The notes under the pieces: generated by a model
What the model was told of the DNA's origin: nothing
The model's input: only the letters and a program-made list of their open reading frames with translations
The model's database searches: none
Position numbers and translations under genes: made by a program
Assembly (NCBI GenBank): GCA_002746935.1
Contig: PDRW01000038.1
Span: 1-64,000 of the forward strand
Source: Rhodobacterales bacterium
GTDB lineage: Bacteria > Pseudomonadota > Alphaproteobacteria > Rhodobacterales > Rhodobacteraceae
Direction: 5' to 3'
Length of the DNA stretch: 64,000 nucleotides
Shown: positions 2,603 through 61,853 of the stretch, one piece after another
How the letters are laid out: each line of letters begins with the position of its first letter
How positions within the stretch are numbered: the stretch's first letter is position 1

Positions 2603-3355
2603 TCAGCCCTTTGCCGCTTCCAGCGCCGCAATGATCGGCGAGAAATCGCCCGCCTTCAGCGAGGCCCCGCCCACCAGCGCACCATCGACATTCGCAACGC
2701 CGAAAATCTCCGCCGCATTGGAAGGCTTCACCGAGCCGCCATAAAGCACCCGGATCTTGTCGCCTTCCGCGCCATACCGCGCCACCAGCCGCGCGCGGAT
2801 GAAGTCGTGCACCTCGGTGATCTGTTCGATGGTCGGGATCTTGCCGGTGCCGATCGCCCAGATCGGCTCATAGGCCAGCACCGCATTGGCGCCGGTCAGC
2901 CCCTCGGGCAGCGAGCCCGCGAGCTGGGCCCCGATCACCTCGAGCGTCTCGCCGGCCTCGCGCTGCGCGAGGCTCTCGCCAAGGCAGATCACCGCCGTCA
3001 GCCCGGCGCCAAGCGCGGCCTTGGCCTTGGCACAGACATCGGCATCGGTCTCGCCATGGTCGGCGCGGCGCTCCGAATGGCCGACGATCACCGCGCTGGC
3101 GCCCGCGTCCACCAGCATCGCGGTGGAAATGTCGCCGGTATGGGCGCCCTTCTCGGCGGCATGGCAATCCTGTCCGCCCACGGCCACCGCAGACCCTTCC
3201 GCCGCCGCCGCCATACGGGCCACCAGCGTGGCGGGGGGGCAGATCAGCACGTCGACCCTGGGGTCGCCATGCGCCGCCTTCAGCGCCTCGATCTCACCGA
3301 GCGAAGCGCCCGTGCCGTTCATCTTCCAGTTGCCTGCCGCAAGTCCACGCCGCAT
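2603..3355 (-). CDS. tpiA: Triosephosphate isomerase
   Basis: A 250-residue glycolytic enzyme interconverting glyceraldehyde-3-phosphate and dihydroxyacetone phosphate in the cytoplasm. Active-site landmarks are all present: AGNWKMNG near the N-terminus (Asn and Lys), VGHSERR (catalytic His), [12 protein letters not shown] (catalytic Glu and loop 6) and VLYGGSVKP (phosphate loop). The start is [14 protein letters not shown], preceded by GAGG; an open frame continues far upstream into the neighbouring permease region but that part is out-of-frame sequence, not coding. Length matches the family (about 250). It lies alone downstream of an amino acid transporter. Confidence 0.98.
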
Positions 3356-19406: not shown

Positions 19407-20189
19407 ATGTCCGGCAATCTTTCCCCAATGGAGACCGCCAGGTTCGTGGCCGCGAAACGCGCGGTGGATTTCGTCGAGGACAAGATGCGCGTCGGTCTCG
19501 GCACCGGCTCCACCGCCGCCTGGATGGTGCGGTCGCTGGGCGAGCGGGTGCGCGAAGAAGGGCTGAGACTCAAGGGCGTGCCCACCTCGTCGCGCACCGC
19601 CGAGCTTGCGGCCCGGGTGGGGATCAGCGTGGTCAGCCTCGACGAGGCGCGCTGGCTCGATCTCACCATTGACGGTGCCGACGAGTTCGACGCCGGTCTC
19701 AACCTGATCAAGGGCGGGGGCGGCGCATTGTTGCAGGAAAAGATCGTCGCCACCGCCTCCGACACCATGGTGGTCATCGCCGACCCGTCGAAACGTGTCG
19801 AACATCTCGGCGCCTTCCCGCTGCCGGTGGAAGTGGTGCCCTTCGGCTGGCAGACCACCAGGGCGCTGATCGAGGAGGCGCTCGACGCCACCGATGTGCT
19901 TGGCACCGGCAGCGCGCTGCGGATGTCCGGCGACGCCCCCTTCGTCACCGACGAGGGCAACCACATTCTCGATCTGCACCTTCAGCGAATCGGCGATGCC
20001 CGCAAGCTGGCGCTGATGCTCAACCAGATCCCGGGCGTGGTCGAGAACGGGCTGTTCGTCGACATCTGCGACCGGGTGGTGATCGGCAATCCCGACGGGC
20101 GTGTCGAGGTGTTCGACATCAACGACGGCACCACCGAGGAAAGCCGGATCGACTTCGCCGAAGACGACAACATCTTCTCGGACCTCTGA
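19407..20189 (+). CDS. rpiA: Ribose-5-phosphate isomerase A
   Basis: A 260-residue cytoplasmic enzyme of the non-oxidative pentose phosphate pathway (ribose-5-P to ribulose-5-P). Motifs: VGLGTGSTAAWMV (phosphate loop), LTIDGADEFDAGLNLIKGGGGALLQEKIVA (catalytic Asp, Glu and Lys) and NPDGRVEVFD near the end. AGGGAGA lies ahead of the ATG. It is slightly longer than E. coli RpiA through the C-terminal acidic tail. Stands alone. Confidence 0.97.
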   Translation: MSGNLSPMETARFVAAKRAVDFVEDKMRVGLGTGSTAAWMVRSLGERVREEGLRLKGVPTSSRTAELAARVGISVVSLDEARWLDLTIDGADEFDAGLNLIKGGGGALLQEKIVATASDTMVVIADPSKRVEHLGAFPLPVEVVPFGWQTTRALIEEALDATDVLGTGSALRMSGDAPFVTDEGNHILDLHLQRIGDARKLALMLNQIPGVVENGLFVDICDRVVIGNPDGRVEVFDINDGTTEESRIDFAEDDNIFSDL

Positions 20190-20554
20190 ACCCGGCAACG
20201 CCAGTCCGGGGGCGCGGGGGCGCGGGAGCGGGCAGGGCGGTACGGTTCAGCCGGTTGGCCGCCGGACGGGGCCCGTCCGCGGTTGGCAACGGTGGCTGGC
20301 GAACCGGCCCCGGCGCTTTCGTCGCGCGGTCTGCCTTGCCCCCGCTGTTGGCGGCGGGCCTGCGGGTCCGCCGAAGACCGCTGCCGGATCGCGGTGCGGC
20401 GCGGGCTGTGCCGGCGGCGGTGCGCGGCGGTGCGCGACGGTGCGCGACGGTGCGCGACAAGGGCGCCGAACCGCCCCCGACACGATCCCGAGATGCCAGG
20501 AGGGCCGGTGGGAAGGTCTTGAAATGCCGCAGGCGGCTTCCAACCTTGCAGATC
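20190..20554. other. GC-rich spacer with GTGCGCGACG repeats
   Basis: About 365 bp without a supported gene. A short tandem array of GGTGCGCG(A/G)C units occurs at about 20418-20458. Nothing else was recognised. Confidence 0.45.
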
Positions 20555-21034
20555 ATGGACCTCAGCCCGCACCGCGCCCCTATCGCCAACTTTGCCCTGC
20601 CGATTCTGGCGCTGAACGTGCTGTTTGTTGCAGGCTTGCCCGGGGACAAAACGCCAAAACTGTTTCTGGCCGGAATGCCGGCTGCGCTGCTCGAGGCTGA
20701 GAAAACCCTCGGCATCGCGCTTCTGGCGCTGAGCTTCGCTCTGCCCTTCCGCAGCAACCGCACCGGCTGGATGCTGTTTACCGTCGGAACGCTTGCCTGG
20801 ATGGCCGCCTGGGGATGGCAGATTATCGCCCCGGACAGCATGGGCGCGCGGTCGGCCATCGGCTTTACCGCCCCTGCCTGGACCGCGGGGATCTGGATCG
20901 CAGGGCTCGGGTTTCTCGCCCGGCCACCGGTGTTTTCACCGCACCGCGCCTGGCTGCAAACATGGTGGGGCCTCGCCATCGGCTTCTTCGCAACCCATGT
21001 CGCCCACGCGGCTCTGGTCTGGACGCGGCTCTGA
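20555..21034 (+). CDS. Predicted membrane protein, unknown function
   Basis: A 159-residue protein with five likely membrane segments (FALPILALNVLFVAGL, LGIALLALSFALPF, WMLFTVGTLAWMAAWGWQII, AWTAGIWIAGLGFLA and WWGLAIGFFATHVAHAALVW). The start MDLSPHR was chosen because upstream codons show no coding character; no strong ribosome site is seen. No family was recognised. It stands between rpiA and the convergent yqeY-like gene, with low-complexity DNA on both sides. Confidence 0.6.
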   Translation: MDLSPHRAPIANFALPILALNVLFVAGLPGDKTPKLFLAGMPAALLEAEKTLGIALLALSFALPFRSNRTGWMLFTVGTLAWMAAWGWQIIAPDSMGARSAIGFTAPAWTAGIWIAGLGFLARPPVFSPHRAWLQTWWGLAIGFFATHVAHAALVWTRL

Positions 21035-21321
21035 AGCGGGCGCCACTGCTCCCACGAGAGCACGCCCGGGGTCATTTGCAGTCACGCCACCTGCTCTGTC
21101 GTTTGGTTTTCACATGTCGAAATGCGCAAAACCGGGACACGATCTGCGGGGCAAACTCCAAGACCGGCGGTTTCGGTTTCCTGCATGCACCCGCCCCGCA
21201 GCCGCAGCCGCCAAACCGGGCGCGGCCTCAGGGCGCTGCCCCCGCGCCCGCGCCTTTTCCTGGTTCAAATACCCAAACCACGGCGCCGCCGCCTTCATGG
21301 CGCCCGCCGCAGGGCGCGGGC

Positions 21322-21780
21322 TCAGCCGAGTCGTGCCTTCACCAGCGGGCCAACGGTGCCGAAATCCATCCGGCCGGTATATTTGCCCTTGAGCTCGCCC
21401 ATGACCCGCCCCATGTCGCGGATCGTCTCGGCGCCGACCGCGGCCACCGCCGCCTCGATCGCGGCTTCCACCTCTTCGCCCGACAGGGGCCTGGGCAGAA
21501 ATTCCTCGATGATCCCGACTTCCGCGCGTTCCTTTTCGGCAAGCTCGAGCCGCCCGCCCTCCTCGTAGACCCGCGCGCTCTCCTGGCGCTGTTTCACCAT
21601 CTTGCCGAGAATTGCCAGGATCTCGTCATCGGTCACCTGCGCCTCCTCGCCTTCACCGCGCTTGGCGATGTCGCGATCCTTGATCGCGGCGGTGATCAGC
21701 CGGAGGGTCGAGAGGCGCGCGGCCTCCTTCTGTTTCATCGCGGTCTTCAGGGCGTCGTTCAGCCGGGTGCGCATGTCCAT
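21322..21780 (-). CDS. YqeY/GatB-tail domain protein
   Basis: A 152-residue cytoplasmic protein of the YqeY family, homologous to the C-terminal tRNA-binding domain of GatB. The N-terminal helical part reads LNDALKTAMKQKEAARLSTLRLITAAIKD and ILGKMVKQRQESARVYEEGGR; the C-terminal part has EEFLPRPLSGEEVE, DMGRVMGELKGKYTGRMDF and VGPLVKARL. All are diagnostic. The family is widespread and often next to carA or dnaG; its role is unproven, though tRNA contact is suspected from the fold. Divergent from carA with a 178-bp spacer. Confidence 0.95.
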   Translation of the reverse strand: MDMRTRLNDALKTAMKQKEAARLSTLRLITAAIKDRDIAKRGEGEEAQVTDDEILAILGKMVKQRQESARVYEEGGRLELAEKERAEVGIIEEFLPRPLSGEEVEAAIEAAVAAVGAETIRDMGRVMGELKGKYTGRMDFGTVGPLVKARLG

Positions 21781-21958
21781 CGGTCAGGCCTCGGAAGTTG
21801 CTGTCGGAGCCCCGCCTTACCCGCTCGGGGGCGCGCGCACAAGCGTGCCCTTCGCCCTGGCGCTCATCCCTTCGCCGGCAAGGCCGCGATCGCACCGCTT
21901 GACCCTCCCCCCCGGCGCTCTTAGAAAACCGCCAGTCTGGCCATCCGGGGGGAAGCAG

Positions 21959-23134
21959 ATGCCGCACAGCAAATCGCCCAAACCGACCGCCTGTCTTGCG
22001 CTCGCAGATGGCACGGTGTTCACCGGCACAGGCTTCGGGGCCGTGGGCGAAACCACGGCGGAGCTCTGCTTCAACACCGCGATGACCGGTTATCAGGAAA
22101 TCATGACCGATCCCTCCTATGCAGGTCAGGTGGTGACCTTCACCTTTCCCCATATCGGCAACACCGGGGTGACCCCGGAGGATGACGAGGCCGGCGAAGC
22201 GGTGGCCGGGGGCATGGTGGTGAAATGGGATCCGACGGCGCCCTCGAACTGGCGCGCCACCGAAGCGCTGACCGGCTGGCTCGCCGGACAGGGCCGCATC
22301 GGCATCGGCGGTGTCGACACCCGCCGTCTTACCCGTGCGATCCGCCATCAGGGCGCGCCGCATGTGGCGCTGGCGCATGACCCGGAGGGGAATTTCGACA
22401 TCGAGGCGCTGGTCGCCAGGGCCCGCGCCTTCCCGGGGCTGGTCGGGCTCGACCTCGCCAAAGAGGTCACCTGCCGCGCCCCCTACCGCTGGGACGAGAT
22501 GCGCTGGGCCTGGCCTGACGGCTGTCCGCGTCTCGACCGGCCGAAACACAGGGTGGTGGCGATCGACTATGGCGCCAAGCGCAACATCCTGCGCGCGCTG
22601 GCCTCGGCCGGCTGCGATGTGACCGTCCTGCCCGCCACCGCCACCGCGGAAGAAATCAGGGCGCTGAACCCCGACGGCGTGTTCCTCTCCAACGGCCCGG
22701 GCGACCCGGCCGCCACCGGCGAATATGCGGTGCCGATGATCCGGGGCTTGCTCGAGGATGAAGAACTGCCGCTCTTCGGCATCTGCCTCGGCCACCAGAT
22801 GCTCGCCCTCGCGCTCGGGGCGAAAACGGTCAAGATGAGCCACGGCCACCACGGCGCCAACCACCCGGTGAAGGACCACACCACCGGCAAGGTCGAAATC
22901 ACCTCGATGAACCACGGCTTCACCGTCGACAGCCAGTCGCTCCCCGAAGGCGTGACCGAGACCCATGTGAGCCTGTTCGATGGCACCAACTGCGGCATTG
23001 CGTTGAAAGACCGCCCGGTCTTCTCGGTGCAATACCACCCGGAGGCGAGCCCGGGGCCGATGGACAGCTTCTATCTGTTCGAGCGTTTCGCCGCCGCGAT
23101 GGCGGCGCGCGGTCGGACGGCCCGGCCCGCGTAA
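21959..23134 (+). CDS. carA: Carbamoyl-phosphate synthase small subunit
   Basis: A 391-residue glutaminase subunit supplying ammonia to CarB for carbamoyl phosphate (arginine and pyrimidine synthesis). The N-terminal CarA domain has [32 protein letters not shown] and [13 protein letters not shown]. The C-terminal amidotransferase has SNGPGDPA, the nucleophile motif [11 protein letters not shown] and [11 protein letters not shown] (His/Glu). carB is not adjacent. The start MPHSKSPKP is supported by a GGGGGAAG site and by matching the family's N-terminus. Confidence 0.97.
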
Positions 23135-23333
23135 AGGCGCCGAGCCGGAAACCCGGGCCCCCCCCGGCGGCCTCGTCGACCCCAGGGATCTGGCGGCCCC
23201 GGCGGCCCCGGGGATCCGGACGGGCGCGGAAACCGGGCCACGCCATGGTGGACAGCGCCCGCGCCCGCCACTAAACCCCCCACAAACGCCACGCGCGCCC
23301 CGCGCGGCCTACAGACACACCGGAACAAGACCC

Positions 23334-25985
23334 ATGGCCAGCCTGAACGACATCCGCTCCACTTTCCTCGGCTTTTTCGAAAGAAACGGCCACCGCGTCG
23401 TCGACAGCTCGCCGCTGGTGCCGCGCAACGACCCGACGCTGATGTTCACCAATTCCGGCATGGTCCAGTTCAAGAACCTGTTCACCGGGATCGAACACCG
23501 CGATTACGTCCGCGCCACCACCTCGCAGAAATGCGTCCGCGCCGGCGGCAAGCACAACGACCTCGACAACGTCGGCTATACCGCCCGCCACCACACCTTC
23601 TTCGAGATGCTCGGCAATTTCTCCTTCGGCGATTACTTCAAGGCCGATGCGATCCCCTTCGCCTGGGAGCTGATCACCCGCGATTTCGGCATCGACCCGG
23701 CGAAGCTGCTCACCACCGTCTACCACACCGACGACGAGGCCTTCGAGATCTGGAAGAAGGTCGGTGTGCCCGAAGACCGGATCATCCGCATCGCGACCCA
23801 TGACAATTTCTGGCAGATGGGCCCCACCGGCCCCTGCGGCCCCTGCACCGAAATCTTCTACGACCACGGCGAACACATCCCGGGCGGCCCCCCGGGCAGC
23901 CCGGAGGAAGACGGCGACCGGTTCATCGAGATCTGGAACATCGTGTTCATGCAGAACGAGCAGTTCGAGGATGGCACGATGGTGCCGCTCGAGATGCAGT
24001 CGATCGACACCGGCATGGGGCTCGAGCGGATCGGCGCGCTGCTTCAGGGCAGCCATGACAATTACGACACCGACCTGTTCCGGGCGCTGATCGAGGCCTC
24101 GGCCCATGTGACCAGTTCCGAGCCCTATGGCGCCGACAATGTCCACCACCGGGTGATCGCCGACCATCTGCGCTCGACCTCCTTCCTGATGGCCGACGGG
24201 GTGATGCCCTCGAACGAGGGCCGCGGCTATGTGCTGCGCCGGATCATGCGCCGCGCCATGCGCCATGCCCATCTGGCGGGCGCGAAAGACCCGGTGATGC
24301 ACCGGCTGGTGCCGGAGCTGGTCCGCCAGATGGGGCAGGCCTATCCCGAACTCGGCCGGGCTCAGGCGCTGATCGAGGAAACCCTGCTCACCGAAGAGAC
24401 CCGCTTCAAGGCCACGCTCGACCGCGGCCTTCGCCTGCTCGACGAGGCGCTGGACGAGCTCCCCGAAGGCGCCGATCTGCCGGGCGAGACCGCGTTCAAG
24501 CTTTATGATACCTACGGCTTCCCGCTCGACCTCACCCAGGACGCGCTGCGCGAGAAGGCCCGCGGGGTCGACACCGCGGGCTTCGACGCCGCCATGGCCG
24601 AGCAGAAGGCCAAGGCCCGCGCCGCCTGGGCCGGGTCCGGCGAGGCGGCCGATGCGGCGATCTGGTTCGACATCGCCGAGGACAAGGGCACCACCGAGTT
24701 TCTCGGCTACGACACCGAGAAGGCCGAGGGCCAGGTTCTGGCGCTGGTCAAGGACGGCGCCCTTGTCGACGCCGCCACCAAAGGCACGACGGTGCAGATC
24801 GTCGTCAACCAGACGCCGTTCTATGCCGAGGCCGGCGGTCAGGTGGGCGATACCGGCTTCATCAGGACCGCGACCGGCGAGGCGAAAGTGACCGATACGA
24901 AGAAGGTCGCCGAGGTGTTTCTGCATCTGGCCGAGGTGGTCGAGGGGCAGATCGAGGCGGGGCAGGGGGCGGAACTGGTGGTCGACCATCTGCGCCGGAC
25001 CGCGATCCGCGCCAACCATTCCGCCACCCATCTGCTCAACGAGGCGCTGCGTCAGGAGCTTGGCGAGCACGTCGCCCAGCGCGGCTCGCTCAACGCCCCC
25101 GACCGGCTGCGTTTCGACTTTTCGCACAACAAGGCGCTGACGCCCCGGCAGCTCGAAAACATCGCCATGGAGGTCAACGCCTATATCCGCCAGAACGCCC
25201 CCGTCGAGACCCGGGTGATGACCCCGGAGGCGGCGCGCGAGATCGGGGCGCAGGCGCTGTTCGGCGAGAAATACGGCGACGAGGTCCGGGTGGTGTCGAT
25301 GGGCGTGGCGCCCACCGGCAAGGGCACCGGCGGCGAGACCTATTCGATCGAGCTTTGCGGCGGCACCCATGTGACGCGCACCGGCGACATTGGCCTGTTC
25401 GTGCTGCTCGGCGACAGCGCTTCGGCGGCCGGGGTGCGGCGGGTCGAGGCGCTGACCGGCAAGGCGGCCTTCGCCTATCTGGAAGGCGAAGCGCGCCGGG
25501 TGGCGGCGCTTGCGGGGCTGCTGAAGGCGCAGCCGGGCGATCTGGTCGACCGGGTGAGGGCGCTGATGGAGGAGCGCAAGGCGCTGGAGGCGGAGGTGAC
25601 GCATCTGCGCCGCGAACTGGCGCTCTCCGGCGGGGCCAAGGAGGCGGCGAAGCCGAAGGAGATCGGCGGGGTGGCGTTCCTCGCGCAGGTGCTCACGGGC
25701 GTCTCCGGCAAGGATCTGCCGCCGCTGATCGACGAGCACAAGGCCGCGATGGGCTCGGGCGCGGTGCTGCTGATCGCCGACACCGGCGGCAAGGCGGCGG
25801 TGGCCGCGGGGGTGACCGACGATCTGACCGGGCGGCTCTCGGCGGTCGACATGGTGCGCGCCGCGGTGGCGGAGCTTGGCGGCAAGGGCGGCGGCGGACG
25901 GCCCGACATGGCCCAGGGCGGCGGCAAGGATGTTTCCGCGGCCGGGGCCGCGGTGGACGCAGTAGAAGCGCTGCTGCGCGGCTGA
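23334..25985 (+). CDS. alaS: Alanyl-tRNA synthetase
   Basis: An 883-residue synthetase with all four parts. Catalytic core: [40 protein letters not shown] and [12 protein letters not shown]. tRNA-recognition region in the middle. Editing domain: [15 protein letters not shown] and [14 protein letters not shown], whose His and Cys residues bind the catalytic Zn. C-terminal C-Ala/DHHA1 domain: [14 protein letters not shown]. Length is typical. It stands alone; a very long antisense open frame over it is only a consequence of GC-rich codon usage. Confidence 0.98.
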
Positions 25986-50311: not shown

Positions 50312-50802
50312 GCCCTGGCGGGGCCGGTTGCGGAACGCCGCCCGACCGATGGGCCCGGCCCCGCCTTGGAAAGGTGACCACGCGGTCGTTTGCGGTGCCC
50401 CCGACAGCGGAGGCGCAGGACGGCGCCGCAGCCCCGTTTCCGCAGCCCCGTTTCCCATGTGTTGTCCGGCGTCGGTCCGGGGCGTTTGCTGCGGCTTTCC
50501 GGGCGTTTTACCCTGCCATAACAATATGTTGAACGACATATTCAAATTCCATTATTCCGGAATTCCGGACTAATGGAATACCGGGCTTCAGGGCTTCAGG
50601 GCTTCAGGGCTTTGAGGCCCGTGGGCAGCCCTGTGCTCAGCCCGGCGCCGGACAGGCTCCGGCACCGCAAGAGGGGTGGTTCCTGCCGCATTCCGCATCC
50701 CGTCGCGCGCCGGGCAGCCCTTGCAACGGGGCTCACAACAGGGGTTTACAACCGGGGCTGAGCTGCATGAAGCTCCCGGCGCCGCTGAAGGAGCCCGCGC
50801 CG
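50312..50802. other. Spacer before phoR with palindromes and short repeats
   Basis: About 490 bp without a supported gene. An AT-rich patch at 50515-50590 contains an inverted repeat AATATGT-TGAACG-ACATATT, the second copy of the palindromic element, and three and a half tandem GGGCTTCA units (50583-50612). Confidence 0.6.
50548..50575. repeat. Palindromic element, copy 2
   Basis: ATTATTCCGG, AATT, CCGGACTAAT: an inverted repeat with one mismatch. With flanks it matches 26 of 28 bases of the element at 19088-19115. As there, it sits in an isolated AT-rich patch in a long spacer. The next gene is phoR, about 230 bp downstream. Confidence 0.75.
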
Positions 50803-51837
50803 ATGACCCCGCAGGACATACTCACCGCCGTTCCGCTGCCCTGCGCCCATGTGGCCGCCGACGGGCGGATCCGTGCGATCAACGAGCCGCTGGCGCGGAT
50901 GTTCGGCGCTGAAATCCGTGGCCGCCACTACGTCACCGCCTTCCGCCAGCCGGCGCTGCTCGACCGGATCGAGCGGGCGCTGGAGGAAAGGGAACGGACC
51001 AGCGGCACCTATATCGGCCAGCAGGCGGGGCGCGACACCACCCATGAGGTGACGATTTCGCCGATCGCCGGGGGCGGGCGGGCGCCGGGCGTAGTGGTCT
51101 GTTTCGAGGACATCACCCATCTCGCCGAGGCCGGGGAACGGCGGTCGGAATTCGTTGCCAATGTGAGCCACGAGCTGCGCACACCGCTGACCGCCATCAC
51201 CGGTTTCATCGAGACCCTGCGCGGCCCGGCGCGCGACGATCCGGCGGCGCGCGAGCGGTTTCTGGTCATCATGGAGCGCGAGGCGCGGCGGATGAACCGG
51301 CTGGTGGACGATCTGTTGTCGCTGTCGCGGGTCGAGGATGTGGAGCGGGTGCGGCCGCTGGATATGGTCGATGTGGCGGCGCTGGTGGAGGCGGCGGCCT
51401 CGGGGCTGGCGCCGCAGGCGGCGCTGCGCGGGGTGCGGGTCGAGGTCACCGGCTGCGAGGAGGAACAGCTGGCCCCGGGCGACGCCGACCAGCTCACCCA
51501 GGTTTTCACCAATCTGGTTGAAAACGCGATCAAATACGGCCGCGAAGGCGGGCGGGTGCAGGTGCGGCTTGAGCGGCTGCGCGGCACCGCGGTGCTCAAG
51601 GGGGCGGGGCTTCGGCTGTCGGTCAGGGACGACGGCGAGGGCATCGACCCGCGCCATCTCGCCCGTCTCACCGAACGGTTCTACCGGGTCGATTCGCACC
51701 GGTCGCGCGGCATGGGCGGCACCGGGCTGGGGCTGGCGATCGTCAAGCATATCGTCAACCGCCACCGCGGGCGGCTGCGGATCGAGAGCGTGCCGGGCGC
51801 GGGGTCGACCTTTGCCGTGTTTCTGCCGCTGGCGTGA
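50803..51837 (+). CDS. phoR: PhoR-like sensor histidine kinase, no membrane segments
   Basis: A 344-residue kinase for the phosphate-starvation response. A PAS-like domain (about 10-105) is followed by the HisKA motif FVANVSHELRTPLTAI with phospho-acceptor His123, then the ATPase boxes QLTQVFTNLVENAIKYG, VRDDGEGIDP, RFYRVD and GGTGLGLAIVKHI. Unlike E. coli PhoR it has no N-terminal membrane helices, so it probably senses through PhoU/Pst at the membrane from the cytoplasm. GAAGGAG precedes the ATG; an ATG 12 codons earlier is a weaker choice. Upstream of pstS on the same strand. Confidence 0.93.
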   Translation: MTPQDILTAVPLPCAHVAADGRIRAINEPLARMFGAEIRGRHYVTAFRQPALLDRIERALEERERTSGTYIGQQAGRDTTHEVTISPIAGGGRAPGVVVCFEDITHLAEAGERRSEFVANVSHELRTPLTAITGFIETLRGPARDDPAARERFLVIMEREARRMNRLVDDLLSLSRVEDVERVRPLDMVDVAALVEAAASGLAPQAALRGVRVEVTGCEEEQLAPGDADQLTQVFTNLVENAIKYGREGGRVQVRLERLRGTAVLKGAGLRLSVRDDGEGIDPRHLARLTERFYRVDSHRSRGMGGTGLGLAIVKHIVNRHRGRLRIESVPGAGSTFAVFLPLA

Positions 51838-52150: not shown

Positions 52151-53182
52151 ATGTCCTTCGTCAAACTGACCGCCTCGACGCTGGCGATTGCCGCCGTTTC
52201 GGCCACCGCCGCCGCGGCCCGTGACCAGGTTCAGGTCGCCGGTTCATCCACCGTGCTGCCCTATGCCTCCATCGTGGCCGAAGCCTTCGGCGAAAACTTC
52301 GACTTTCCCACCCCGGTGGTGGAATCGGGCGGCTCTTCGGCGGGGCTGAAGAAGTTCTGTCAGGGGGTTGGCGAAGAGACCATCGACATCGCCAATGCCT
52401 CGCGCCGGATCCGCGACAAGGAGATCAAGGCCTGTGCCGAAGCGGGGGTGACCGGGATCATCGAGGTGCGGATCGGCTATGACGGCATCGTCTTTGCCTC
52501 GCAGCTTGACGGGCCGGCCTATACCGCCTTCACCCAGGCGGATATTTTCAACGCGCTGGCGCCGAAGGTGATGGTGGACGGCGCGCTGGTCGACAACCCG
52601 CACCGGAAATGGTCGGACGTCAACCCCGACCTTCCGGCGGAAGACATCCTTGCCTTCATCCCCGGCACCAAGCACGGCACCCGGGAAGTGTTCGAGGAGA
52701 AGGTGATTGCCGCCGGCTGCGAGGCCACCGGCGCTTTCGAGGCGATGAAGGCGGCGGGGATGTCGGAGGACGAGGCCGAGGATGCCTGTCTCGAGGTTCA
52801 CAGCGACGGCCGGTCGGTGGATATTGACGGCGATTACACCGAGACCCTCGCCTCGATCGACGCCAATGCTCATGCCATCGGGGTGTTCGGCCTCGCCTTC
52901 TACGAGAACAACACCGACAAGCTCAAGGTCGCCACCATGGCCGGTGTCGAGCCCACTACCGAGACCATCGCGTCGGGGGATTATCCGGTGTCGCGGCCGT
53001 TGTTCTTCTATGTGAAAAAGGCCCATATCGGCGTGGTGCCGGGGGTGAAGGATTATGCCGAATTCTTCATCTCCGACGATATGGCGGGGCCTGACGGGCC
53101 GCTGGCGGAATACGGGCTGGTCTCGGACCCGGAGCTTCTGGCGACCCAGGAGGCGGTCGCCGCGGAAGAGACCATGAAGTAG
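52151..53182 (+). CDS. pstS: Phosphate-binding periplasmic protein PstS
   Basis: A 343-residue binding protein with a signal peptide (MSFVKLTASTLAIAAVSATA, AAARDQ). The mature N-terminus QVQVAGSSTVLPYASIVAEA and FPTPVVESGGSSAGLKKFCQG are the standard phosphate-site loops, with DIANASRRIRDKEIKAC following. SSTV and GGSSAG residues bind the phosphate. AGGAGAC precedes the ATG. First gene of the Pst transporter set, behind a Pho box. Confidence 0.96.
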   Translation: MSFVKLTASTLAIAAVSATAAAARDQVQVAGSSTVLPYASIVAEAFGENFDFPTPVVESGGSSAGLKKFCQGVGEETIDIANASRRIRDKEIKACAEAGVTGIIEVRIGYDGIVFASQLDGPAYTAFTQADIFNALAPKVMVDGALVDNPHRKWSDVNPDLPAEDILAFIPGTKHGTREVFEEKVIAAGCEATGAFEAMKAAGMSEDEAEDACLEVHSDGRSVDIDGDYTETLASIDANAHAIGVFGLAFYENNTDKLKVATMAGVEPTTETIASGDYPVSRPLFFYVKKAHIGVVPGVKDYAEFFISDDMAGPDGPLAEYGLVSDPELLATQEAVAAEETMK

Positions 53183-53267: not shown

Positions 53268-54797
53268 ATGTCGCCATTCTGGCTTCTCCTCAGCGTTTTC
53301 CTGCTGGCGGTCATCGGTTTCGTGCTCGGGCGCCGGCGCGCGCTCGCGAGCGTCGACGATCCGCGCAAGCTGCATTCCCGCCCGGCCTATTACGGCGCTC
53401 ACCTCGCCATGCTGACCTTCGTGCCGGCGGTGCTGCTGCTCGGGGCCTGGCTGGTGGCGCAGCCGCTGGCCATCGACCGGGTGGTCGCGGGCAACCTCCC
53501 CGAAAGCGTCCGGGCCGATACGGGGGCCGATACGGGGGCCGATACAGGGGCCGATACGGGGGCGGATACGGGGGCCGACAAGGGGGCGCTCAGCCTCATC
53601 ATGTCGGATGTGCAAAGGGTCGCCCACGGGCTCGATACGGCGGTGGCCCGCGGCGTGCTGAGCCGGGCCGAGGCGCGCGCGCTTGACGCCGGCACCGACG
53701 ACATTCGCGGGCTGCTCGGCGGCATCGGGGTGGCGCTTGGCGCGGAGGTGAAGCCGGAGGTTCTGGCGGCGGCGCAGAGCTACCGGCGGCTGGCGAAGAG
53801 TGGCGCGTGGGCGATGAGCCTCGTGGTGCTGGCGCTGGCGCTGGCGGGGCTGGGCTGGGCCTGGCGCCGCACCGACGGCCGATTGCGCGCCCGCAACCGG
53901 GTCGAGGCCGGGATCCTCTGGCTGCTGATCGCGGCGGCCACGGTGGCGATCCTGACCACCGTGGGCATCGTGCTGTCGCTGCTGTTCAACGCCATCGAGT
54001 TCTTCCGGCTCTATCCGGCGGGGGCGTTTTTCACCTCGCTGGAATGGGCGCCGAGTTTCTCCGGGCGGGGCGGGGCCTCGGAGCTCGGGATCCTGCCGCT
54101 TCTCTGGGGTACCTTCTACATCTCGCTGATCGCGCTGCTGGTGGCGGTGCCGATCGGGCTTTATGCCGCCGTCTATCTCTCGGAATACGCGAGCCCAAGG
54201 CTGCGCAGCTTTGCCAAGCCGCTTCTGGAGGTGCTCGCGGGGATTCCGACCATTGTTTATGGCCTGTTCGCGCTGCTCACCGTGGGGCCGCTGCTGCTCG
54301 GCGTTTTCGGCAACGAGGGGCTGGGCTGGATGAGCGGGGGCAGGGCGGTGATGACCGCGGGGATCACCATGGGGGTGATGCTCATTCCCTTCGTCTCGTC
54401 GCTTTCCGACGACATCATCAACGCGGTGCCGCAGGCGCTGCGCGACGGCTCCTACGGGCTCGGGGCGACGCGCTCGGAGACCGTGCGCCATGTGATCCTG
54501 CCGGCGGCGCTGCCGGGCATCGTCGGTGCGGTGCTGCTGGCGGCCTCGCGGGCCATCGGCGAGACCATGATCGTGGTGATGGGGGCGGGGGCCGCGGCGC
54601 GGATGAGCCTCAACCCGTTCGAGGCGATGACCACCGTGACCGCGAAGATCGTCAGCCAGCTCACCGGCGACAGCGATTTCGCCTCGCCCGAGGCGCTGGT
54701 GGCCTTCGCCCTGGGGATGACGCTGTTTGTCGTCACCCTCGGGCTCAACGTGCTCGCGCTCTATATCGTGCGCAAATACCGGGAGCAGTACGAATGA
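53268..54797 (+). CDS. pstC: Phosphate ABC transporter permease PstC
   Basis: A 509-residue permease. The first 220 residues form the alphaproteobacterial N-terminal extension with three membrane segments. The permease domain starts near LGILPLLWGTFYISLIALLV and carries LLEVLAGIPTIVYGLFAL and the EAA loop AVPQALRDGSYGLGATRSETVRHVILPAALPGIVG. Between membrane segments 2 and 3 there is a tetrapeptide repeat (ADTG x5) from a 12-bp minisatellite. The stop overlaps the pstA start (ATGA). Confidence 0.96.
   Translation: MSPFWLLLSVFLLAVIGFVLGRRRALASVDDPRKLHSRPAYYGAHLAMLTFVPAVLLLGAWLVAQPLAIDRVVAGNLPESVRADTGADTGADTGADTGADTGADKGALSLIMSDVQRVAHGLDTAVARGVLSRAEARALDAGTDDIRGLLGGIGVALGAEVKPEVLAAAQSYRRLAKSGAWAMSLVVLALALAGLGWAWRRTDGRLRARNRVEAGILWLLIAAATVAILTTVGIVLSLLFNAIEFFRLYPAGAFFTSLEWAPSFSGRGGASELGILPLLWGTFYISLIALLVAVPIGLYAAVYLSEYASPRLRSFAKPLLEVLAGIPTIVYGLFALLTVGPLLLGVFGNEGLGWMSGGRAVMTAGITMGVMLIPFVSSLSDDIINAVPQALRDGSYGLGATRSETVRHVILPAALPGIVGAVLLAASRAIGETMIVVMGAGAAARMSLNPFEAMTTVTAKIVSQLTGDSDFASPEALVAFALGMTLFVVTLGLNVLALYIVRKYREQYE
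53514..53573 (+). repeat. 12-bp minisatellite in pstC
   Basis: Five units of GCCGATACGGGG (with single-base variants), encoding ADTG repeats in the periplasmic or linker part of PstC. In-frame, so copy number could vary without breaking the gene. Confidence 0.9.
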
Positions 54798-55938
54798 CCG
54801 ACGCGCCCCAGACGCCCGAAACCGGTGCCCCGCCGCGCCGCACCCGCTCGCTCTATGACACCGACGCCCGCACCCGTCGCCGCAACGCCGCCGAGACGCG
54901 GTTCCGCGCCTATGGCATCGCCGCCATTGCCACCGGGCTGGTGTTCCTCGTGGTGCTGCTGGCCTCGATCGTCTGGAACGGGCTGCCCGCCTTCACCCAG
55001 ACCTACATCACCTTGCAGGTCGAGCTGCCCGAGGAGAAGCTCGACAAGTCCGGCACCCGCGACCTTGAAGTGATGAAGAAGGTTTCCACCTTCGGCTACA
55101 ACCCGCTGCTGGACGCGGCGCTGGCGCAGGCGCTGGCGGAGAACGGCATCGAGAACCCGTTCCCCAAGGCCAAGGCGCTGCGCAAGATGCTCTCGGCCTC
55201 GGCCGCGGCGGAGCTGCGTGAAGCGGTGCTGGCGGATCCGGGGCTGGTCGGACAGAGTGTCAGCTTCCGCCTGCTGGCCTCCAGCCGGGTCGACGGCTAC
55301 CTCAAGGGCCGGGTGACCCGGGACGCGCTGGCCCGCGACAAGAACCTCGATCCGGCGCATCTCGATCTGGTCGACGCGCTGCGCGACGCGGGCGTGGTGC
55401 GGAAAACGTTCAACTGGGGCTTCATCTTCGGCGCCGACGCCTCCGAGAGCCGCCCCGAAGCCGCCGGGATCGGGGTGTCGATGCTGGGGTCGCTGTTCAT
55501 GATGCTGGTGGTGCTGGCGCTGGCGCTGCCGATCGGCGTGGCGGCCTCGATCTATCTGTGCCGCCCTCGATCCGCGAGGCGGCGCTGGGCGTCGGCGCCT
55601 CGAAGATGCAGACGGTGTTTCACCATGTGCTGCCGCTGGCGATGCCCGGCATCCTCACCGGCACCATCATCGGCCTTGCGCAGGCCCTCGGCGAGACCGC
55701 GCCGCTGCTTCTGATCGGCATGGTGGGCTTCATCGCCTCCAACGCGCCCGACACGCTCGCCGGCGGCTTTCTCGCGCCCAACTCGGCCATGCCCGCGCAG
55801 ATCTACGAATGGGCCAAACGCGCCGACCCGGCCTATTACGAACGCGCCTGGGGCGGGATAATCGTCCTGCTGCTGTTCCTGCTGGCGATGAACGTGGTTG
55901 CGGTGATCCTGCGCCGCCGTTTCGAGCGCCGCTGGTAA
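54794..55938 (+). pseudogene. pstA: Phosphate ABC transporter permease pstA, internal deletion with frameshift
   Basis: The first part (about 254 codons) reads as PstA: an N-terminal segment, a large soluble insertion, then MLGSLFMMLVVLALALPIGV AASIYL. At about 55558 the frame changes; the GTG-CCG-CCC codons continue as VPPSIREAALGVGASKMQTV and run to the normal PstA end, RRRFERRW. In intact homologues roughly 70 residues separate IYL from VPPSIREAA, including 'LaaVPSIVfGLlgla' and 'TLPtIIIatRaAl'. They are missing, and the loss must be 3n+1 bases. The remaining EAA loop and last two segments are out of frame. Either a real mutation or an assembly error. Confidence 0.9.
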
Positions 55939-55957: not shown

Positions 55958-56755
55958 ATGAACGACACAATCGAAGGACGCACCCCGGTGGAGCACAGTG
56001 AAATGAAATTCCAGGCCCGCGGCGTGCAGGTGTTCTACGGCGACACCCACGCCATCAAGGATGTGAATGTCGACATCCTCGACAAGACCGTCACCGCCTT
56101 CATCGGGCCTTCGGGCTGCGGCAAGACCACCTTTCTGCGCTGCCTCAACCGGATGAACGACACCATCCCGATCTGCCGGGTGGAGGGCGATATCCGCCTC
56201 GACGGCGAGGACATCAACCACTCCGACGTGGACCCGGTGCAGCTGCGTGCCCGCGTCGGCATGGTGTTCCAGAAGCCGAACCCGTTTCCGAAGTCGATCT
56301 ACGACAACATCGCCTATGGGCCGCGCATCCACGGGCTGGCGCGGGGCAAGGCGGAGCTCGACGACATCGTCGAGCAATCCCTGCGCCGCGGCGCGCTCTG
56401 GGACGAGGTGAAAGACCGCCTGAACGCCCCCGGCACCGGGCTTTCCGGCGGCCAGCAGCAGCGGCTGTGCATTGCCCGGGCCATTGCCACCGCGCCGGAA
56501 GTGCTGCTGATGGACGAGCCCTGTTCGGCGCTCGACCCGATCGCCACCGCCCAGGTGGAAGAGCTGATCGACGAGCTGAGGCAGAATTATTCGGTGGTGA
56601 TCGTCACCCATTCGATGCAGCAGGCGGCGCGGGTCAGCCAGAAGACCGCCTTCTTCCACCTCGGCAGCCTGGTGGAATATGACGACACCACCACCATCTT
56701 CACCAACCCGCGCGACCCGCGGACCGAAAGCTACATCACCGGCCGGATCGGCTGA
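55958..56755 (+). CDS. pstB: Phosphate ABC transporter ATP-binding protein PstB
   Basis: A 265-residue ATPase. Walker A is GPSGCGKTT at 50-58, followed by [10 protein letters not shown], the PstB hallmark. [22 protein letters not shown], the signature [14 protein letters not shown] and Walker [16 protein letters not shown] are typical, with the switch His in [12 protein letters not shown]. It lies 20 bp downstream of pstA. Intact, although its permease partner PstA is broken. Confidence 0.97.
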
Positions 56756-56804
56756 GGGGCAGGGGCCGGAAGAGGCAGAGAAGAGCCCAGAGGAGGCCAC
56801 AACC

Positions 56805-57539
56805 ATGAACGACCGCAGCCAGCATATCGCCGCCGCCTTCGACCGCGACCTCGAAGAGATCCAGGCCAAGCTGATGAAGATGGGGGGGCTCGCGGAACAG
56901 AACATCCGCCAGGGTGCCAAGGCGCTCAAGAGCCGCGACCTCGACCTTGCCGACAAGGTGCGGCTTGCCGACCTTGAGATCGACAAGCTGGAAGAGCAGA
57001 TCACCCTCGACTGCGCCCGGGTCTTCGCCACCCGCCAGCCGATCGCGTCGGATCTGCGTACCGTGCTCACGGTGATGAAGATCGCCACCAATCTCGAACG
57101 CATCGGCGACTACGCCAAGAACATGGCCAAGCGCACCCCGGTGCTCGCCCGGCTGAGCCCGATCGAGGGCGCGGCGGGGGCGGTGAAACGCATGGCCAAG
57201 GAAGTGCGGCTGATGCTCTCGGACGTGCTCGACGCCTTCATCCGCCGCGACGCGGACCTCGCCGAACAGGTCCGCCACCGCGATCTTGAAATCGACCAGA
57301 TGTACAACGCGCTGTTTCGCGAATTTCTCACCTTCATGATGGAGGATCCGCGCAACATCACCGCCTGCATGCATCTGCACTTCATCGCCAAGAACATCGA
57401 ACGCGCCGGCGATCAGGTGACCTCCATCGCCGACCAGGTGATCTATCTCGCCACCGGCGAATTGCCCGAAGAAAGCCGCCCGAAGGACACCACCTCCGCC
57501 TATGACGTGCAGGAGGGTTTTCGGGAATCGGATGAATGA
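56805..57539 (+). CDS. phoU: Phosphate signalling protein PhoU
   Basis: A 244-residue protein with the two three-helix PhoU domains. Each carries a metal-cluster motif: QPIASDLRTVLTVMKIATNLERIGDYAKN and NITACMHLHFIAKNIERAGDQVTSIA, the 'E/DxxxD' pattern. PhoU couples the Pst transporter to PhoR and restrains the response in high phosphate. AGAGGAGG precedes the chosen ATG. The last codons overlap phoB by four bases. Confidence 0.97.
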   Translation: MNDRSQHIAAAFDRDLEEIQAKLMKMGGLAEQNIRQGAKALKSRDLDLADKVRLADLEIDKLEEQITLDCARVFATRQPIASDLRTVLTVMKIATNLERIGDYAKNMAKRTPVLARLSPIEGAAGAVKRMAKEVRLMLSDVLDAFIRRDADLAEQVRHRDLEIDQMYNALFREFLTFMMEDPRNITACMHLHFIAKNIERAGDQVTSIADQVIYLATGELPEESRPKDTTSAYDVQEGFRESDE

Positions 57540-58225
57540 CCGCCGGAAAGCCGCTGGTGCTGCTGGTCGAGGACGAACCGGCGCAGCTTGAAGTGCTGCG
57601 CTACAATCTCGACGCCGAGGGCTATGAGGTTGCCACCGCCGAAACCGGCGACGAGGCACTGCTGCTCGCCGACGAGCTCCGGCCCGATCTCGTGCTGCTT
57701 GACTGGATGCTGCCGGGGGTGAGTGGGATCGAGGTGCTGAGGCGCTTGAAGAACCGCCGCCAAAGCGCTGAAATTCCTGTCATAATGGTTTCCGCCAGGA
57801 CCGAGGAAATGGACCGGGTGCGCGGTCTCGAAACCGGTGCGGACGATTACATGGTGAAGCCTTATTCGGTCAACGAGCTGATGGCCCGGATTCGCACCCA
57901 GCTGCGCCGCACGAGGCCGGCGGCGGTGGGCGGGCAGGTGGCGTTCGATGACATCCTGCTTGACGGCACCACCCACCGGGTGACCCGCGCGGGTGCGGAT
58001 ATCCGCCTCGGACCGATCGAGTTCCGGCTGCTCGCGACCTTCATGGAAACGCCCGGACGGGTCTGGACCCGCGAACAATTGCTCGACCGGGTCTGGGGCC
58101 GCGAAGCGCTGGTCGACACCCGCACGGTCGATGTCCATGTGGGCCGTCTGCGCAAGGCGCTGCGCCAGACGGGAGGAGACGACCCGCTGCGCACCGTGCG
58201 CGGCACCGGCTATGCGCTCGGGTGA
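57536..58225 (+). CDS. phoB: Phosphate response regulator PhoB
   Basis: A 229-residue OmpR/PhoB-type regulator. Receiver domain: LVEDEPAQLEVLRYNLDAEG, phospho-acceptor Asp56 in LVLLDWMLPG, and the conserved Lys in YMVKPYS. The winged-helix DNA-binding domain ends with RTVDVHVGRLRKALR and TVRGTGYAL. The start overlaps the phoU stop. Once phosphorylated by PhoR it should bind the Pho box before pstS. Confidence 0.97.
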   Translation: MTAGKPLVLLVEDEPAQLEVLRYNLDAEGYEVATAETGDEALLLADELRPDLVLLDWMLPGVSGIEVLRRLKNRRQSAEIPVIMVSARTEEMDRVRGLETGADDYMVKPYSVNELMARIRTQLRRTRPAAVGGQVAFDDILLDGTTHRVTRAGADIRLGPIEFRLLATFMETPGRVWTREQLLDRVWGREALVDTRTVDVHVGRLRKALRQTGGDDPLRTVRGTGYALG

Positions 58226-58391: not shown

Positions 58392-59135
58392 TCAGTGGAA
58401 CAACAGCGCGTCGGGCACCCGCTTTTCGGTGGCGAGGCGCATTCCCAGATGCGGCGGCGGCGCCCCGACCGCGCAGCCGCCCCGGGCGGGATCGCGGACA
58501 AGAAACGGGATCACGGCCTCATGTTCGCCCTGAACCACAAAGGCCGGACAGGCCTCGGGCGTCGTACCGCTCTGGTAGCAGTCCTGGGTCCATTCCCAGA
58601 CATTGCCGTTGAGATCCTGAACGCCTTCCGTGGTTTCGGCCCAGGATCCCCGGGGCCGCAAGCGCCGGTCCACAAGGTTTTCCACCAGATAGGTCGACGC
58701 CCATGTCAGGCTGGGATCGGTGAAGATCGGGTCCGGCTTTTCAGGCATCACCGGGGCGGCCAGCTCGGACCATTCTTCGGCGGTCATCAGCCGGAACCGG
58801 TGCCGCGCCTTCTCGCTGATCCAGGCCAGATATTCGCTGACATCGGCATAGGACAGGTTGGTCGCGGGCCAGTCTTCGCCCTTGTCGAAGGTCGGCGGGC
58901 GCAGGTGCTGGGTGCAGCCGCCTTCATCGTAACAGCGGTTCCATTCGGCCAGCGACACCTCGCGGCGCGCCACCCAGAGCGGCTTGCCGCCCACTTCGGC
59001 CACGGCCACCATCTCGGGCATATAGGCGGGATCGGGGCCGCGCATCGCAAGGAAGGCGCCGGCCCCGGCGCCCCCCACCCCGAGCAGAACGGCCACGATG
59101 GCAATGCGTTTTGCGGTTTTCGGGGAAAGGGGCAT
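58392..59135 (-). CDS. nirV: NirV, nitrite-reductase-associated FGE-like protein
   Basis: A 247-residue protein with one N-terminal membrane anchor (KRIAIVAVLLGVGGAGAGAF) and an FGE-sulfatase (formylglycine-generating-enzyme-like) domain: ARREVSLAEWNRCYDEGGC, PATNLSYADVSEYLAWISEK, RFRLMTAEEWSEL, VQDLNGNVWEWTQDCY. NirV is found next to nirK in denitrifiers, for example Rhodobacter sphaeroides; its precise role is not established. It follows nirK by 27 bp on the same strand. Confidence 0.93.
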   Translation of the reverse strand: MPLSPKTAKRIAIVAVLLGVGGAGAGAFLAMRGPDPAYMPEMVAVAEVGGKPLWVARREVSLAEWNRCYDEGGCTQHLRPPTFDKGEDWPATNLSYADVSEYLAWISEKARHRFRLMTAEEWSELAAPVMPEKPDPIFTDPSLTWASTYLVENLVDRRLRPRGSWAETTEGVQDLNGNVWEWTQDCYQSGTTPEACPAFVVQGEHEAVIPFLVRDPARGGCAVGAPPPHLGMRLATEKRVPDALLFH

Positions 59136-59162
59136 TTTGCTGACCTCTCGTCAGAGCGTGGT

Positions 59163-60386
59163 TCACCGCGGGGCGACGACCTGTTCCATCAGGCTGTTGT
59201 CCCAGTCGCCTTCGACAACGAAATGCGCGGTGGCGCCCAGAATGGATGCCTCGATCAGGTTGTGGTTCACATAGGCGTAAACCCCGGGCTGACGCAGCGT
59301 GTACATCGCGGCAATGGCGCTGCCGCCCGGCACGAACCAGGTTTCCATGTTGGTCAGCGGCGCATCATGGAACGAGGCCGGCCACATGTAATCCGCATGC
59401 CCGCCGATCAGGTGCGGTCGCGAATCGCGGTTCGACTGGTTGTGGATCATCAGCACGGTGTCGCCGACCTTGAACTTCAGCGCCCCTTCCCCGGTGAGCG
59501 CGCCGACCGAACCGTTGAACACGCAATGCGAGGGGATCAGCCCGGCCATTGTCTCCAGATAATCCGCATAATCGTCGCCCGCGGCTTCATAGACCTTGTA
59601 ATCGCCGTTTTCATCTTTCGGCAGGTAGTAATCCTGCTCGCCGATATAGGCGATCTTGTCATAATGCAGCGGGTTGCCGTCCTTGTCCTTCAGCCCGTCG
59701 CGCGGCAGCACCATCAGGCCACCGTTCATCCCGTGGGTGACGTGATAGGGGATCATCGCCCCACCCGGCGCGCAGTGATAGGTGAAGCACCCGGCCCGGG
59801 TCGCCTTCCAGCGCAGCACGGTTTCCTCGCCGGGCAGAACATGGGTCAGCCCGCCGCCACCCAGAGCGCCGGTCGAGGCATGGAAGTCGATGTTGTGCTC
59901 CATGTTCGAGTCTTCGCTGTTGCGCAGGGTCAGCTCGATATAGTCGCCTTCGTGGCAGATGATCAGCGGACCGGGAACCGAGCCGTTATAGGTCAGCGCC
60001 CAGACGGATGCCCCGGTGTCGTCATCGACCACCATCAGCTTTTCCTGGATCTCCATGGTGATCTCGATGATCTTCGGCTTGCCGGTGGCGACCTGTTCAT
60101 GCTCGGGGGCGAAGGGCGGCGCGACCAGCTCCATCTTCACCCGCTCGTAGCCCGACAGATCCGCAGGCTTGGCGGTTGTGGCGGCGACCTGTTTTCCGGC
60201 GACCTTGTGAAGCTGGCGCGACACGGCATCGGCGGTGCGCGTCTGAGGCCCACGCCCTGCCGCCTGTGCGCCGGAGCCGGCCACCATCGCGCCGGCGCCA
60301 CTCGCGGCGGCGGCACCCGCAACAAGCGAGCCACGCAATACGTCGCGGCGGCTGGTGACGAGATGGGGATTGACGACTTTCTTCAT
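59163..60386 (-). CDS. nirK: Copper nitrite reductase NirK
   Basis: A 407-residue periplasmic enzyme reducing nitrite to nitric oxide. A Tat signal ([17 protein letters not shown]) is at the N-terminus. Copper ligands are visible: HNIDFHA (His164 type 1, His169 type 2), [20 protein letters not shown] (His204 type 2, Cys205, His215 and Met220 type 1). The third type 2 His is expected in the C-terminal domain (NHNLIEAS region). The '[18 protein letters not shown]' form is typical of class I NirK. ACAGGAGG precedes the ATG. Electron donor is probably the pseudoazurin encoded upstream. Confidence 0.97.
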
Positions 60387-60413
60387 GTGTTTCCTCCTGT
60401 TGGACCATGCGCA

Positions 60414-60472
60414 TGTCACACCGGTACCGTTTGCCGGCAGCCTGGCCGCCGGCACATGTCAGGGGTGTGACA
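60414..60472. promoter_or_regulatory. Inverted repeat in the nirK leader
   Basis: TGTCACACC (60414-60422) and GGTGTGACA (60464-60472) are a perfect 9-bp inverted repeat with a 41-nt gap, just upstream of the nirK ribosome site. It may be a regulator site or an mRNA structure. Confidence 0.45.
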
Positions 60473-60518
60473 ATATCGGAAAAGGTGCCCGGGAGCTTAC
60501 TCCCGGGGCGCGGGCTTT

Positions 60519-60542
60519 CCCGGGCGCATCACCGCGCCCGGG
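60519..60542 (-). terminator. Hairpin after the pseudoazurin gene
   Basis: A perfect 9-bp stem, CCCGGGCGC and GCGCCCGGG, with a 6-nt loop, 17 bp beyond the pseudoazurin stop codon. No T run follows on the minus strand, so it may be a partial terminator or mRNA end. Confidence 0.5.
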
Positions 60543-60559
60543 ATGGCGTGTTTGCCAGA

Positions 60560-60994
60560 TTACTGGCTCAGGTTCTCAAGCTGCGCCTCGAAGCGCTTCA
60601 TGGCCTTCTTCGGGATCTTGCCGCCGAGGAAGTCTTCCGGGGCGGCGCCGTCGCCCACGGCAATGGTCATCACCATGCCCATGGCGAAGTGCGGCTTGCA
60701 CTTGATCCCGTAGAAACCCTCGGTGTTGAAGGTCACCTCGACTTCTTCATTGATCTTGCCGGTGAAGGTTTCGCCGCCCTCGGGGACCATGCCCTTCATC
60801 GTTTCGGCGCTGTGACCCTTGTCGGTGGCGACAAACTTGACCGTGTCGCCGGGGGCGATGCGCAGGAAGTCGGGCTCGTACACCATTGCCCCGGCATCGC
60901 CTTTGTTGAGCATCTGCACTTCAAACGTTTCGGCCCAGGCCGGCGCCGCGAGCGCCACCGCCACCGCGGTCGCGGCTGTCAACTTACGAAACAT
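60560..60994 (-). CDS. Pseudoazurin
   Basis: A 144-residue blue copper protein. Signal peptide MFRKLTAATAVAVALAAPAW AE. Counting from the Glu after AWA, the copper ligands fall at His40 (KGHSAET), Cys78 and His81 (IKCKPHF) and Met86 (AMGMVM), exactly as in characterised pseudoazurins. It carries electrons from cytochromes to NirK in the periplasm. An ATG one codon earlier is possible; AGGGAG favours the chosen spacing. Upstream of nirK and divergent from the Crp/Fnr regulator. Confidence 0.97.
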   Translation of the reverse strand: MFRKLTAATAVAVALAAPAWAETFEVQMLNKGDAGAMVYEPDFLRIAPGDTVKFVATDKGHSAETMKGMVPEGGETFTGKINEEVEVTFNTEGFYGIKCKPHFAMGMVMTIAVGDGAAPEDFLGGKIPKKAMKRFEAQLENLSQ

Positions 60995-61018
60995 CATGAT
61001 CTCCCTATATGAGTATGC

Positions 61019-61039
61019 GTAACGTTGATACCACGTTAC
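61019..61039. promoter_or_regulatory. Operator-like inverted repeat between pseudoazurin and the Crp/Fnr gene
   Basis: GTAACGT and ACGTTAC, a perfect 7-bp inverted repeat with a 7-nt spacer, 22 bp upstream of the pseudoazurin start. It lies in an AT-rich divergent spacer. A second CAACGTT half-site occurs at 61071. It does not exactly match TTGAT-N4-ATCAA, so if the neighbouring regulator binds here its site is a variant. Confidence 0.5.
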
Positions 61040-61151
61040 ACCGGCAAGATACGCGAATATTGTTCTGCCGCAACGTTCATCGCAAAAAGTGGTCTGGTGT
61101 GGGTCAAAACTGGCTGGTAATTTGCCCGTGAGTGCCTCCGAAAGCCCGACG

Positions 61152-61853
61152 ATGACACGACCTGACCCAGTTTTGTTGCGCGATCTGCCGGCCTTTGCCT
61201 CTCTCGACACCGATCAGATCCGGGCGATTCTCGATCTGGCCACGCCGCGGCAGCTGCGCGACGGGGCTCCGGTCTTCCATGAGGGCCATGACGCGGAGCT
61301 TTTCTTCCTGCTGCTCGACGGCCATGTGCGCGTTGTGCGGGCCAACGCGGATGGCCAGCAGATCATCGTGCTGTATCTGCATTCGGGATCGCTGATCGGG
61401 ATCGCTGTGGCGCTCGGGCGCGACACCTACCCGGCCACCGCCATCGCCGCGGGCGATGTCTCGGTTCTTGCCTGGCCAAGCACGCTCTGGGAGGTGTTTG
61501 CCGCGCAATATCCCGGTTTCGCCCGCAGCGCCTATGCCACGGTCGGCACGCGGATCGGAGAGATGACCACCAACATGCTGGAAACGGCGACGCAGCAGGT
61601 CGAGCGGCGCGTCGCCTGCGCGCTGGAGCGGATCCTGCGGCAATCGGGCCGCAGGGAGGCCGGTGGCATTGTCATCGAAATGCCGATCACCCGCCAGAAC
61701 ATCGCCGACATGACCGGCGCGACACTGCACACGATCAGCCGTCTGCTGAGCGCCTGGGAGCGCGACGGGCTTATCAGGAGCGCCCGCCGCCGGATTACCG
61801 TCACCGACCCGGCGGGGCTTGCGCGGCTGTCGGGGGGGCTTTCGGGGCGCTGA
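61152..61853 (+). CDS. Crp/Fnr-family regulator, NnrR/DNR-like
   Basis: A 233-residue regulator. The cyclic-nucleotide-binding-like domain spans about 20-140 (FHEGHDAELFFLLLDGHVRVVR, GSLIGIAVALGRDTYPATA). The helix-turn-helix is PITRQNIADMTGATLHTISRLLSAWERDGL. It lacks the N-terminal Cys cluster of oxygen-sensing FNR, which fits the nitric-oxide-responsive NnrR/DNR/NNR group that controls nirK. It is divergent from the pseudoazurin and nirK genes. GTG at 61125 is an alternative start; no strong ribosome site decides. Confidence 0.9.
   Translation: MTRPDPVLLRDLPAFASLDTDQIRAILDLATPRQLRDGAPVFHEGHDAELFFLLLDGHVRVVRANADGQQIIVLYLHSGSLIGIAVALGRDTYPATAIAAGDVSVLAWPSTLWEVFAAQYPGFARSAYATVGTRIGEMTTNMLETATQQVERRVACALERILRQSGRREAGGIVIEMPITRQNIADMTGATLHTISRLLSAWERDGLIRSARRRITVTDPAGLARLSGGLSGR

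Follow-up and report, generated by a model that had tools for sequence, protein, structure and literature searches.

The question raised by this locus is whether a member of the Rhodobacterales has lost the phosphate transporter permease PstA, or whether the loss exists only in its draft genome. The stretch of DNA analysed here (the window, 64,000 nucleotides) comprises bases 1-64000 of an 85,285-base contig, C82, and carries on its + strand the row phoR, pstS, pstC, pstA, pstB, phoU and phoB. Within this row the frame of pstA (54794-55938) shifts after position 55557, as is evident from the window sequence and from alignments with relatives. The left part, from the ATG at 54794 to 55557 (+ strand, 254 codons plus 2 nt), encodes the N-terminal DUF3333 domain (PF11812, 165.4 bits in a family profile search) and the start of the permease domain, ends in ...GVAASIY(L), and also matches positions 32-81 of the TIGR00974 profile (3.7e-09). 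The right part (55558-55938, + strand) encodes the rest of the permease domain, out of frame relative to the left part; its bases 55558-55935 match TIGR00974 positions 156-271 (2e-32) as well as PF00528, and it carries the coupling (EAA-type) loop. The 272-position TIGR00974 profile is matched in two different frames with positions of about 82-155 missing, and neither piece comes up to the cut-off of 193.45 bits. Judged by these matches, both halves are PstA.

The sequence has lost 217 internal nucleotides of pstA. At the junction, 55557/55558, relatives have 217 further nucleotides (72 codons plus 1), which correspond approximately to residues 108-178 of E. coli PstA in an alignment with PDB 9k3x, and since 217 equals 3x72+1 the last third of the gene is out of frame. 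A reading made earlier from the sequence alone had placed a frame change at about 55558, with PstA on both sides and a loss of about 215 bp, about 70 residues and 3n+1 bases; the profile matches in two frames and the alignments bear this out and make the figures exact. The junction itself contains no N, nor does any other position in the window. As written, the frame of the left part (54794-55714, + strand, within the ORF 53807-55714) would yield 254 PstA residues followed by about 52 out-of-frame residues and a stop. The permease domain has no continuous open frame, with the frame changing at 55557/55558 and the stop ending at 55714, and it is not plausible that pstA as written encodes a working permease.

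Comparison with relatives shows that the segment is kept in every locus examined. All 99 relative loci (L013-L111; 19 from genomes and the best 80 of 286 contigs) have the additional 217 nt between the two halves, in a single frame; L015 and L041 are one contig, so the number of independent loci is below 99. Because the segment is present in every relative examined, chance is not an issue. The stretch is free of stops in 98 of the 99 loci (contigs again being the best 80 of 286); the sole stop in the aligned pstA stretch occurs in L084, from an uncultured Sulfitobacter draft (CALFWM010000052.1). Among the 60 genomes searched, the nearest relative is about 81% identical at the DNA level across the left half of pstA, and a 52-residue query gave matches including, among those listed, Pseudooceanicola and other roseobacters. 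Its relatives place the organism in the Rhodobacteraceae/Roseobacter group. The G+C content of the segment in relatives is 0.61-0.62, compared with 0.67 for the window. Its ends share 0 nt in 73 of the 99 relatives and 4 nt at most (best 80 of 286 contigs included).

The neighbouring genes are whole by profile searches and by comparison with relatives: pstS (52151-53182), pstC (53268-54797), pstB (55958-56755), phoU (56679-57539, with its start as listed, relatives aligning from about 56823) and phoB (57536-58225), all on the + strand. The same applies to the phoR-like sensor kinase (50767-51837, + strand), which scores 298.5 bits against TIGR02966, under the cut-off of 334.2. The pstSCAB-phoU set with phoBR is complete and ordered with pstA alone broken, as the sequence-only reading had held, and the order is identical in the congeners G004, G002 and G001. 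Where genes of the window had a counterpart in the stretches taken from these three genomes, pstA is the only split gene; 93 of 179 relative ORFs matched the window, a partial coverage in which G002 contributed the pst area only. Nine comparison rows fell below 80% coverage, two of which are pstA itself, while in each of the other seven a different relative ORF, on either strand, accounts for the stretch with an alignment of at least 85%. Widespread frame errors in the window are thereby ruled out for the compared genes, only pstA being cut.

Several further readings of the break were rejected or found to lack support. A second pstA in the draft is ruled out: apart from the broken gene, TIGR00974 matches are PstC and four weak hits (18.9-52.4 bits), all below the cut-off, and pstA, used as a DNA query against the draft, recovered itself and short matches only. 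The search for a second copy that had been proposed at the outset thus ends with a single pstA in the assembly. Relocation of the missing piece is likewise ruled out, as the best matches in the draft to the 73-residue segment of G004 score 14.6 and 12.8 bits. Slippage or collapse between direct repeats is unsupported: the site is bridged only by short G+C-rich matches, and with almost no homology between the segment ends (0-4 nt) a simple repeat collapse is no explanation. A chimera of two organisms is unsupported too, both halves and their flanks being nearest to the same genus.

The reading that we favour, with a probability of roughly 0.55, is that the loss sits in the draft assembly and is not a fixed allele of the organism. 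A join across an unassembled stretch, or a read path that was chimeric or came from a minority, would have produced the 217-nt loss, and the cell itself would possess an ordinary working PstSCAB-PhoU-PhoBR system. The genome is an incomplete draft whose 94 contigs add up to 2,807,716 bases, with a completeness of 83.9% and a contamination of 1.47%; its completeness and fragmentation suggest that it is a metagenome bin. This state of the draft, together with the distance to the nearest relative, the retention of the segment in all relatives examined and the lack of clear decay in the two halves (see below), favours a loss at the level of the assembly. Spurious pseudogenes arising from assembly are, moreover, common (PMC11017572), which adds to the case.

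A second cut of a similar kind may point in the same direction. A codon-usage scan over 841,037 bases (about 30%) of the draft gave 13 candidates, of which two proved in family searches to be single genes split between frames (pstA and cas8c), seven were two different genes and four stayed undecided. The cas8c/Csd1 gene of a type I-C CRISPR-Cas locus (C38:9835-11534, - strand, L145) changes frame at a cut near position 10740 that is free of N, the whole contig C38 having none; its left piece covers positions 1-262 and its right piece 310-577 of a 588-position profile, and about 27-35 residues are lacking relative to two complete plasmid cas8c genes. The nearby cas1 and cas4 are whole. In 439,802 bases from G001 and G004, scanned as a control, seven candidates were flagged; no cut gene was demonstrated among them, and four were undecided or unsearched; those left out of the family search include a G004 candidate about 20.5 kb into C3 and a 51-residue middle piece common to two G001 candidates. 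The difference between two cuts in the draft and none shown in the controls is not significant, and a natural load of pseudogenes would fit it as well. Genes of cas systems are often lost in nature.

The pstA gene has caused trouble in another assembly of the same genus. In the congener UBA9292 (G005:C275, identical to L117; DQCI01000141.1), a 91-N assembly gap occupies positions 3118-3208 within pstA, 205 nt past the point equivalent to the junction, which indicates that assembly has failed in pstA before and lends weight to an assembly-level loss here. The two cases are alike in that the gene is imperfect in a draft; they differ in that UBA9292 has an open gap, located in the right half, and retains the 217-nt segment itself. 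The likeness to assembly-made pseudogenes in general is that a conserved gene is broken in one assembly and intact in relatives. PMC11017572 mainly counts internal stops and frameshifts in isolates, and an internal loss of 217 nt exceeds, in our judgement, a typical base-level error.

Some properties of the junction count against the assembly as the source. The segment ends share next to nothing, the junction has no N, the G+C content of the segment is not extreme, and no other compared gene in the window is split. A join with neither N nor overlap usually needs spanning reads, which favours either real DNA or a chimeric read.

The main rival reading is a genuine deletion of 217 bp, one that arose recently and became fixed in the sampled population, leaving PstA truncated and the transporter unassembled. 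We regard this as a serious possibility, at somewhat under even odds. The clean, N-less junction, its near lack of end homology and the wholeness of the other compared genes on the contig all speak for it. Such a cell would have lost high-affinity uptake and, if it behaved like E. coli and Caulobacter, its PhoR-PhoB system would be permanently active, while a low-affinity importer would be encoded in the sixth of the genome that was not assembled. In E. coli, spontaneous Pho-constitutive mutants, most of them with lesions in the pst operon, appear at about 8 x 10^-6 per generation (PMC7737367). Caulobacter crescentus is also an alphaproteobacterium with Pst as its main phosphate entry; it apparently lacks Pit, no homologue having been seen, and survives pst loss, growing slowly with its Pho regulon active (PMC11208175). 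In contrast to the present case, its pst mutants are engineered deletions in a laboratory strain. The sequence-only reading had proposed exactly such a PstA-null strain, with uptake lost and Pho switched on. These consequences fit the precedents (PMC7737367, PMC11208175) if the deletion is real, whereas the null itself is what the incomplete 94-contig draft and the cut cas8c call into question. That reading named an artefact as the outcome that would refute it, yet left it unweighed.

A further precedent is Sinorhizobium meliloti Rm1021, a widely used strain and likewise an alphaproteobacterium, in which one lesion in a permease gene inactivated the pst operon (PMC8829014). There, unlike here, pstC was hit, in a cultured strain and with functional tests, whereas the present case consists of a 217-nt loss from pstA in a draft sequence. 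The Rm1021 lesion is a one-base frameshift in pstC.

If a deletion occurred, the remnant should tell something of its age. Taking G002 as the sister lineage and G004 as the outgroup, the branch leading to the present draft (G000) carries nonsynonymous and synonymous codons in a ratio of 15:17 in the left part and 3:18 in the right part, the corresponding ratios for G002 being 9:26 and 5:15; neither difference is significant (Fisher p of 0.08 for the left part and 0.45 for the right), so that there is no significant nonsynonymous excess. When L099 serves as outgroup the left-part counts become 4:15 versus 6:24 and the excess is gone, while L117 as outgroup gives 12:16 versus 9:25. The earlier impression that the broken copy had drifted little is thus upheld, and by its codon pattern the remnant looks like a gene that has been under selection until now. 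The absence of clear decay in either half means that the event is very recent or absent from the cell. A genuine deletion would accordingly have to be a costly, unstable state caught just after its origin, which weakens that reading. Other broken copies are also scarce among the relatives: only L084, with its one stop, and G005, with its N gap, where contigs are represented by the best 80 of 286.

The supply of alternative phosphate importers bears on the same choice. Searches of the draft found neither Pit (PF01384) nor a member of the Na/Pi family (PF02690), and no PhnE above the cut-off, which speaks against a genuine deletion. Among the six congeners searched, Pit was found in G001, G004 and G005, the Na/Pi family in G002, G005 and G006, and PhnE above the cut-off in G001, G002, G004 and G005; the complete congeners G001 and G004 have both Pit and PhnE, and the genus can therefore hold backups, a point in favour of a tolerated deletion. 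G003, 74% complete, was found to lack Pit, Na/Pi and PhnE. G012, G017 and G021, each at least 98% complete and from the same bacterial family, were searched for Pit and Na/Pi and had neither, which shows that reliance on Pst occurs in the family; the pstA of G017 is intact (L026). E. coli devoid of both PitA and Pst grew on phosphate only with a working PhnCDE (PMC6469041). By such analogies a PstA null would be possible but costly. With no Pit or Na/Pi backup in view, a real null would have no visible importer to live on and is less likely to be tolerated, which again favours an assembly-level loss, unless a backup gene is encoded in the roughly one sixth of the genome that the draft does not contain, as may simply be the case. 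The sequence-only reading was silent on the missing Pit and Na/Pi backup, a gap that matters since it lowers the odds of a tolerated null.

The weakest account, a mixed population in which a minority of cells carry the deletion, the assembler took their path and the species keeps a working PstA, is very improbable: a source resembling a metagenome bin, and a junction free of N and homology as expected from a true read path of some cells, would suit it, but no trace of an intact allele exists elsewhere in the draft, even if bins often drop short fragments such as those of an intact minority allele. Overall, we lean slightly towards a loss in the assembly, place a genuine recent deletion second and a minority allele last.

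It is important to point out that the lesion is of an ordinary kind either way. If the deletion is real, it adds one more natural pst-null whose mutation type and consequence are already known, and its interest would rise only if the strain truly lacked any further phosphate importer. Should it be an artefact, a lone broken conserved gene in an incomplete draft is no basis for a phenotype before the reads are checked. A free-living member of the Rhodobacteraceae/Roseobacter group that recently lost PstA in nature, with Pho permanently on, the remaining pst and pho genes retained and neither a Pit nor a Na/Pi importer, is improbable here; if true, such a loss would be a natural test of phosphate uptake in a cell devoid of Pit and Na/Pi. 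In a narrow search of the open-access literature, no naturally broken pstA from this group came up.

The right part of pstA also carries a lineage feature. The position of Arg220 in E. coli PstA, located by counting along the 9k3x alignment, is occupied by Gln both in the present sequence and in 90 of the 92 relative loci in which the motif was found (it was missed in 7 of the 99, contigs being the best 80 of 286). In E. coli, replacement of Arg220 by Gln blocks transport and keeps signalling (PMC5775613); the PstA of these relatives must therefore transport without that arginine. Within pstC, an in-frame 12-nt tandem repeat of 6.3 copies at 53512-53587 encodes a GADT repeat near the N-terminal domain.

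On a larger scale, positions 1850-63944 of the window (20001-24000 left out) break up into about nine blocks whose counterparts lie far apart on the G001 chromosome, every block having the same orientation. This order reflects either real reshuffling or misjoins, and the single orientation argues against random misjoins. Adjoining phoB, at 58395-61213, are three genes whose G001 counterparts lie elsewhere (9.5-12.7 kb); judged from their translations, we take 59163-60455 to be copper nitrite reductase-like and 60560-61210 to encode a small cupredoxin-like protein.
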